Shown here: positions 639 through 42,555 of the stretch, one piece after another
How positions within the stretch are numbered: position 1 is the first letter of the stretch
Layout: every line of letters begins with the position of its first letter
From: Bacillota bacterium
GTDB lineage: Bacteria > Bacillota > Sulfobacillia > JAJZIM01
Length of the DNA: 43,116 nucleotides
Reading direction: 5' to 3'
NCBI GenBank assembly: GCA_021810565.1
Contig: JAJZIM010000023.1
Location: 1 to 43,116 of the forward strand
Program-made: the position numbers and the translations under genes
Notes under the pieces: generated by a model
Seen by the model: the letters and a program-made list of their open reading frames with translations, nothing else
The model's database searches: none
Told to the model about the DNA's origin: nothing

Positions 639-724
639 CACCGCTAAGGGCAAACGCCGTGAAAGCGGCGGACGCAAAGCCACGGGTCTAAAGCCTACGG
701 GCCATGACAGCCGGGTTGCCGGTG
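639..724 (+). promoter_or_regulatory. Class I cyclic-di-GMP riboswitch (GEMM-I)
   Basis: The conserved GEMM-I core is present in order: AGGGCAAA at 647-654, a helix capped by a GAAA tetraloop at 661-664, GACGCAAAGCC at 671-681, then the second helix with the GGUCUAAAGCC-like receptor side and CCGGGUUGCCGG near 711-722. The closing helix P1 is CACCG (639-643) with CGGTG (720-724). The element senses the second messenger c-di-GMP in the 5' leader RNA. An intrinsic terminator follows at 746-781 and a secreted protease gene at 824, so it most likely acts as a transcriptional switch on that gene. Confidence 0.93.
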
Positions 725-34173: not shown

Positions 34174-34216
34174 ACTTTGCCTTCGTCCCCTACAGCCGCC
34201 CCGCCGCCGCGGGACG

Positions 34217-34373
34217 GGACAGGCAGGTCTCCTGGCTGCGGATCACCGCCTCCGACGCCTTCCCGGTCGCCCGGTGGCCCTGTCGAAGGCTCCCCGTTCA
34301 CAGTGATGGGTTCGCGCCGCCGCCGGCTGCGCCGGTCCGGACTTCCCTATTCTCCCCCGCGGGGCACCTGTCC
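34217..34373 (-). promoter_or_regulatory. Cobalamin riboswitch
   Basis: Read on minus, the element has the B12 box AGCCAGGAGACCTGCC (34222-34237), the P1 pairing GGACAG (34368-34373) with CTGTCC (34217-34222), the 5' AATAGGGAAG segment, and CCCATCACTGT in the core, in the order of class I adenosylcobalamin riboswitches. It binds adenosylcobalamin in the leader of cobT. A terminator follows at 34141-34173. Confidence 0.92.
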
Positions 34374-34470
34374 GCCCTTAGCTTAGCGGCAGCCGAGCGG
34401 GAACACAAAGGCCCTCCCGCCGCCTCAAAGCGCTCCGAGCGGGGCCAATCGCCGCGCCGCGCCGCCTCGC

Positions 34471-41834: not shown

Positions 41835-41887
41835 CCCCGCCGGACACCCTGACCCGGGCGGTGTGAGGGCCGTTTCACCACGGGCCC

Positions 41888-41916
41888 TTGCCTTATCGGT
41901 CCGGCGGTGATACATT
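41888..41916 (+). promoter_or_regulatory. Promoter of a candidate small RNA
   Basis: TTGCCT (41888-41893), 17-base spacer, TACATT (41911-41916) with an extended -10 TGA at 41908-41910. It predicts transcription starting near 41923, which is exactly the first base of the 5' arm of the RNA described next. Confidence 0.6.
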
Positions 41917-41922
41917 TGCCTT

Positions 41923-42050
41923 GGGGACACGGTGGAAACCCCGAGGGAAGAGCAGGGCACAAGGAGATGCAAGCCCTGCCACGCGCCTTTGCGCTTCGAG
42001 CGCCTATAATATGCGTTCTCCCATTGGACACGAAGCCGTGTCCCCTTTTT
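41923..42050 (+). ncRNA. Candidate novel small structured RNA, about 125 nt
   Basis: The first ten bases, GGGGACACGG (41923-41932), are perfectly complementary to CCGTGTCCCC (42036-42045), which is followed by TTTTT. Between them are two perfect hairpins: GCAGGGC (41952-41958) with GCCCTGC (41973-41979), and GCGCT-TCG-AGCGC (41991-42003). The 3' arm can also pair locally with GGACACG (42026-42032) to form the terminator, so two exclusive structures exist. No protein frame fits. It does not match the cores I know of 6S RNA, SRP RNA, tmRNA, RNase P or common riboswitches. It may be a free RNA or an attenuator leader for the gene at 42238. Confidence 0.5.
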
Positions 42051-42051
42051 G
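42026..42051 (+). terminator. Intrinsic terminator of the candidate small RNA
   Basis: GGACACG (42026-42032), loop AAGC, CGTGTCC (42037-42043), then CCTTTTTG: a compact 7-bp stem with a five-base T-tract. A TATAAT at 42005-42010 lies just upstream but without a -35. Confidence 0.8.
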
Positions 42052-42237: not shown

Positions 42238-42555
42238 GTGCCGCCGCCGTGGCCGAGGTTCGGCCTGCCGGTTGTCCTGCGCACGATTCGGGGCAAGCTT
42301 GCGGCCCTGGTCGTGTTTTCCGTGCTCATCGCCATGGGGCTGGCGGTCTGGGGCATGCTGCTCGCCCCGCGCCTGGCCCTCCAGTCCGCCCGCCCCCTGG
42401 TGGAGGCGGGCGGCATGGCCGTGACAGATGCCTTCCGGGAGGCGCTGCTGGCCGACGAGACGGTGCTGCTGAACATGACGCCCGCGCATTCCCCTTCCCG
42501 GGCGCAGCCGGGAGGGGGTCAAGCGGGCGATGGCGGGTGTGCGACAAATTTGTAG
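42238..42555 (+). pseudogene. Truncated membrane sensor or chemoreceptor N-terminus
   Basis: From the GTG at 42238 (GGGGGGGG upstream) the frame gives a basic segment (LRTIRGK), one strong transmembrane helix (LAALVVFSVLIAMGLAVWGML) and the beginning of what would be an extracytoplasmic helix (EAGGMAVTDAFREALLADETVLLN). This is the usual start of a methyl-accepting chemotaxis protein or sensor kinase. After about 42475 the frame turns into unrelated Gly/Pro-rich text and stops at 42555, next to the 3' end of a transposase gene. It is best read as a receptor gene cut by insertion of that element. The signalling domain is missing, so family assignment is tentative. Confidence 0.55.

Follow-up and report, generated by a model that had tools for sequence, protein, structure and literature searches.

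The 43,116-nucleotide (nt) contig JAJZIM010000023.1 (assembly GCA_021810565.1), from a Bacillota bacterium of the class Sulfobacillia, was analysed over its whole length and is called the window below. Near its right end lies a predicted gene for a structured small RNA of about 123-128 nt (41923-42045, plus strand). This RNA is a member of a candidate small-RNA family that was previously uncatalogued, relative to Rfam 15 and to part of the open-access literature. From sequence comparison we consider it probable (roughly 0.6) that the gene belongs to a new family encoding a trans-acting, protein-binding and mobile accessory RNA. The original prediction had proposed an unannotated small RNA gene or attenuator with self-complementary ends; the small RNA gene is retained here while the attenuator is not.

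Members of the family and their detection

A covariance model built from the single window sequence and its predicted fold (R1) was run over 154 genomes of the class. It gave several matches that span the full length at low sequence identity, with closing helices that are unrelated in sequence yet nearly perfectly paired. Two partial matches (L050 and L056) lie inside coding sequence and were dropped. A second model (R2) was built from seven relatives with the window left out, one bulged base being omitted in two of the seven. R2 recovers the window at E = 2.6e-7, a value not fully independent because the first relatives were found using the window, and it also finds new members. Later members are independent of the window, since they come from other phyla and carry other helix sequences. 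The claim that the arrangement is unlikely to have arisen by chance is thus supported by a model that had not seen it. At E < 1e-3, R2 members occur in 13 of the 154 genomes; R2 matches also include five loci in one genome and a second copy in the window's own genome (C18:34019-34112). Four other R2 matches (L075, L077-L079) were discarded as coding repeats or weak partials.

A third model (R3) confirmed members proposed by a core-pattern scan of genome contigs. They belong to Actinomycetota (Solirubrobacterales, Thermoleophilaceae, Modestobacter), Chloroflexota and Acidobacteriota. R3 gave additional members in further Bacillota classes and on alphaproteobacterial plasmids. In all, 42 members can be aligned, from Bacillota, Actinomycetota, Chloroflexota, Acidobacteriota and Pseudomonadota. 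The distribution is sparse (1 of 59 and 1 of 17 genomes in two further classes), with weak members undercounted in the strictly filtered scans of large genomes. A pattern scan of viral contigs gave two matches, one of them a weak partial.

Identity of the relatives to the window RNA is 45-62%. A BLAST search with the 181-base region in its own genome and 40 relatives returned only the locus itself, because family members have diverged beyond the reach of sequence search alone. The region upstream of the adjacent helicase gene has only distant matches in relatives (best 37%, in G022), with no element visible by eye, and a protein scan of genome contigs for AddB found nothing. As originally stated, the RNA cannot be assigned to a known family: none of the 4227 families of Rfam 15 reaches its gathering threshold on the window RNA, searches at E <= 10 give only chance-level matches on the opposite strand of the element, and the relatives have no match, even at E <= 10. 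As a control, R3 was run over 87 kb of loci carrying 6S RNA and other IS110 loci, and gave one sub-threshold match (E 0.28).

6S RNA (RF00013) is likewise a discrete RNA closed by an end helix, with which the new RNA may share expression in stationary phase. However, the new RNA has a pseudoknot and a branched core, whereas 6S RNA consists of a closing stem, a central bubble and a terminal stem. Identity with 6S RNA was rejected: RF00013 matches another contig of the same genome (C7, E 3e-17) and not the RNA locus, and 25 loci that carry 6S RNA give no credible R3 match (best E 0.28). Two genomes of the same genus that carry the new RNA (G017, G037) have a weak 6S match or none, unlike nearly all relatives. 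The raiA, OLE, ROOL and GOLLD RNAs are also conserved structured RNAs of obscure function, some of them on mobile elements. The new RNA resembles them as an orphan structured RNA, but matches no Rfam family.

Conserved fold and predicted transcript ends

The family fold comprises an end-to-end closing helix (P1), a 3-base-pair (bp) helix (P2), a conserved internal loop, a 7-bp hairpin (P3) and an optional variable hairpin (P4). A pseudoknot joins the P3 loop to the stretch preceding the 3' strand of P1. The features of the window copy, all on the plus strand, are as follows.

41888..41916 (+): promoter read from the sequence, TTGCCT (41888-41893), 17-base spacer, extended -10 TGATACATT
41923..42045 (+): structured small RNA, full family match (R3, 73.9 bits, E 1.3e-14 in the window)
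41923..41933 (+): closing helix P1, 5' strand GGGGACACGG(U), opening at the first RNA base
42035..42045 (+): closing helix P1, 3' strand (G)CCGTGTCCCC, partner of 41923-41933
41944..41946 (+): helix P2, 5' strand AGG, pairing with CCU at 41986..41988
41986..41988 (+): helix P2, 3' strand CCU, partner of 41944-41946
41947..41951 (+): conserved internal loop, 5' side GAAGA (family AAGAG), among the best-conserved unpaired positions
41980..41985 (+): conserved internal loop, 3' side CACGCG (family C-R-CGC), unpaired
41952..41958 (+): helix P3, 5' strand GCAGGGC, pairing with 41973..41979
41973..41979 (+): helix P3, 3' strand GCCCUGC (DNA GCCCTGC), partner of 41952-41958
41963..41967 (+): pseudoknot, loop side GGAGA, pairing with 42017-42021, outside every alignment model
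42017..42021 (+): pseudoknot, 3' side UCUCC, partner of 41963-41967
41991..42003 (+): variable hairpin P4, GCGC-UUCGA-GCGC, arms 41991-41994 and 42000-42003
42026..42050 (+): terminator-like hairpin with TTTTT, overlapping the P1 3' strand, peculiar to the window copy

Direct reading of the sequence confirmed the promoter, the closing helix and the inner hairpins first proposed.

Support for the fold comes from an alignment of 42 sequences (A9), in which 30 pairs were counted in five helices, pseudoknot included. Two-sided compensatory changes occur at 29 of these pairs (293 such cells versus 92 in shuffled alignments). Paired cells amount to 93.4%, against 66% in shuffles and 41-50% when the partners are slid, and the covariation score is 0.634, compared with 0.20 in shuffles and 0.09-0.12 after sliding by 1-3 columns. 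In P1 all 12 modelled pairs show compensatory changes (94.9% of cells paired over the 42 sequences). The covariation and the conservation beyond close relatives that would be expected of such a gene are therefore both found, the latter across at least five phyla. P2 appears in relatives as GAC/GUC, GGC/GCC or UGG/CCA (97.5% paired) and P3 covaries at 7 of 7 pairs (95.2% paired). P4 covaries where present and is absent from about 18 of the 42 members. The pseudoknot takes the forms GGGG/CCCC, GAGG/CCUC, CUGG/CCAG and CGGC/GCCG in relatives. At least four Watson-Crick pairs can form in 39 of the 42 members versus 22 with shuffled partners, in a test restricted to Watson-Crick pairs, the version allowing G-U pairs being uninformative. 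Among unpaired residues, conservation is seen at AAGAG and C-R-CGC, opposed in the internal loop that separates P2 from P3, and at CG preceding the pseudoknot strand. G-U combinations outnumber A-C ones 32 to 7 in the helices of the 17-member Bacillota alignment, so the modelled strand is the one that carries the RNA. For the window copy, none of 200 dinucleotide shuffles folds as well as the plus strand (z -4.7; opposite strand z -3.6).

The window promoter has its TG at 41908-41909 and its -10 hexamer TACATT at 41911-41916, ending 6 nt upstream of the RNA. Its match to consensus is weak (4+4 of 12, with the extended -10 in addition), and the promoter scan does not list it; its spacing from the RNA 5' end agrees with that of family members. 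Of the 20 copies borne by insertion sequences, 17 have a TAnnnT motif 3-8 nt before the RNA start (1.7 expected by shuffling). Upstream of 14 of the 22 stand-alone copies, a motif AGG[AGT]-N17/18-GA[AG] is found (0.4 expected), for which the first seven relatives are not independent because the motif was defined after viewing them. We take this to be the sigma-H promoter form, as in the Bacillus subtilis consensus. A SigH that passes the family cut-off is encoded by 15 of 17 carrier genomes. Within the window's genome, the window copy has a sigma-A-like promoter and its paralog a sigma-H-like one. The promoter positions across the family thus imply that the RNA 5' end coincides with P1, and we infer a discrete transcript whose own promoter would start it at the first base of P1. 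The self-complementary ends that led to the prediction of a small RNA gene therefore hold family-wide, through strong covariation of the end helix and an agreeing promoter and 5' end.

At the other end, the perfect 10-bp partner of GGGGACACGG stops just before TTTTT (42046-42050). The proposed second partner of this 3' arm was also verified: GGACACG (42026-42032) and CGTGTCC (42037-42043) form an intrinsic-terminator-like hairpin. The window copy thus seems to end at an intrinsic terminator overlapping P1.

Genomic settings and alternative explanations

Twenty of the 42 aligned members lie inside IS110 elements, at the right end, while 22 stand alone. The window copy is not in an IS110 element; the possibility that it was part of an insertion-sequence end, raised at the outset, does not apply to it, but does apply to about half of its aligned relatives. 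The Bacillota copies are stand-alone with varied neighbours. The window copy lies between an AddB-like helicase and a truncated sensor; other neighbours include an SNF2 helicase, a convergent SWIM protein, SpoVT, a TraG-like ATPase, a response regulator and a decayed IS607 resolvase. No match to the IS110 Transposase_20 profile was found on the RNA-bearing contigs of 17 Bacillota genomes, nor anywhere in six carrier genomes, the window's genome included.

Around the window copy, the membrane sensor-like open reading frame (42238-42555, plus strand) stops just before a UPF0236-type transposase at the contig end (42569-43114, minus strand) and is apparently truncated by its insertion. Elsewhere in the window, two riboswitches exceed Rfam thresholds: c-di-GMP-I (639-723, plus strand) and cobalamin (34205-34386, minus strand). 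The second copy of this genome (C18; L086 8020-8700) has its sigma-H-like promoter followed by the RNA and the decayed IS607-type resolvase.

Outside Bacillota, most copies lie antisense to an IS110-family transposase gene, at its 3' end. In the ten elements with an annotated transposase, the end of the gene, with its stop codon, runs 31-38 nt into the 3' end of the RNA. In Chloroflexi CSP1-4, two copies are identical from CCTACGGATGAAAG inward and different outside, so that the RNA lies inside the mobile unit. Two copies from Roseomonas diverge past TCATCCGT, which puts the break 48 nt outside the RNA. By eye, IS110 elements on Rhodococcus and Roseomonas plasmids (L143, L147, L149) seem inserted in an IS256-type transposase gene, at a conserved site coding for TTNAIE/TTNPIE.

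This consistent placement at the right end in several lineages raises the possibility that a subgroup of IS110 elements uses it as guide (bridge or seek) RNA, or that it derives from such a guide and acts in trans, with the stand-alone copies as relics or domesticated guides. Known bridge RNAs occupy the left end in IS110 elements; in IS1111 elements they occupy the right end, downstream of the transposase gene (PMC11208160, PMC11187229). They resemble the new RNA as structured non-coding RNAs of about 100-180 nt in the ends of IS110-family elements. Likewise, ISPpu9, of the IS110 family, has a downstream sense small RNA, Ssr9, with orphan copies of the gene elsewhere (Ssr9/Asr9; PMC8450116). 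However, Ssr9 lies on the transposase strand and is described in that paper only from Pseudomonas strains (PMC8450116), whereas the new RNA is opposite to the transposase and has its own promoter just upstream. Read by eye, its loops are conserved although target guides must vary, the sole variable loop segment being the structural pseudoknot. The same inspection showed nothing in the RNA that is clearly complementary to the mapped right-end motif CATCCGT (reverse ACGGATG), no systematic guide search having been made. Moreover, the elements seem also to have a long non-coding left end (probably about 275 nt), where bridge RNAs usually reside, and many carriers lack IS110, six genomes being without any Transposase_20 match. 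On strand and conserved loops, a bridge RNA is ranked below an accessory RNA acting in trans and is considered unlikely.

The antisense overlap with the transposase stop codon could instead indicate a regulator silencing the transposase mRNA from its 3' end, the orphan copies being leftovers. Antisense control of transposases is well known. Against this, orphans far from IS110, in genomes without a Transposase_20 match, keep a selected fold and promoters, and a conserved pseudoknotted fold is superfluous for simple antisense pairing. This explanation appears less likely still. The compact pseudoknotted fold, closing stem, conserved loop nucleotides and wide scatter on mobile elements would also suit a new self-cleaving ribozyme embedded in longer transcripts. 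Promoters directly adjoin the closing helix at its first base, and in the window copy the terminator lies at its last, so the transcript would be the RNA itself; known ribozyme families are also unmatched, and we regard a ribozyme as improbable. Finally, a cis-acting attenuator or riboswitch for the sensor-like gene, suggested by the terminator hairpin sharing the 3' arm of P1 (the best fold forcing it is about 9.5 kcal/mol weaker than the minimum), is highly improbable and was rejected as a general function: the GGACACG arm and T-tract of the supposed two-fold switch occur only in the window copy, relatives keeping the closing helix without them, and downstream genes are unconserved, being different, convergent or distant (187 nt past the T-tract in the window).

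Proposed role of the RNA

The preferred explanation is a small accessory RNA acting in trans. Comparison shows its ends joined by a long helix around a conserved core held by the loop-to-3' pseudoknot, and motif statistics support transcription from its own promoter at the first base of that helix. Action in trans is proposed because several copies have no same-strand gene after them and the stand-alone copies no conserved downstream gene. The RNA may serve as a folded scaffold binding a predicted host protein present in many phyla, because conservation falls on the unpaired core and an IS110 transposase match is lacking from several carrier genomes. The patchy distribution points to horizontal spread as an accessory gene, for which IS110 would be one vehicle. 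In spore-forming Bacillota the RNA would be made when sigma-H is active, at the transition to stationary phase, while the window copy would use a sigma-A-type promoter and end at its intrinsic terminator.

Several observations weigh against this explanation. The sigma-H assignment rests on a short degenerate motif, which the window copy lacks. The alignment used for the covariation counts was fitted to a nested-helix model, which favours the nested helices but not the pseudoknot. In addition, the minimum-free-energy fold of the window copy has a different interior (-58.7 kcal/mol), the best nested fold with the family helices reaching about -49.2 kcal/mol, pseudoknot uncounted.

Conservation of a structured RNA through heavy sequence change in five phyla suggests selection for a specific job. 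Its mobile and stand-alone occurrence therefore points to an RNA-based function spreading between bacteria. Tentatively, it may represent a new type of pseudoknotted bacterial RNA that acts in trans and interacts with a conserved host machine, travels across phyla as IS110 cargo and is placed under the sporulation and stationary-phase factor sigma-H in Bacillota. IS110 bridge RNAs now serve as programmable recombination tools, and finding this RNA inside IS110 elements makes one ask whether they rely on a second RNA. The stand-alone sigma-H-linked copies suggest retention by their hosts. With a covariance model and defined promoters to hand, experiments can address its expression, partner and function directly.
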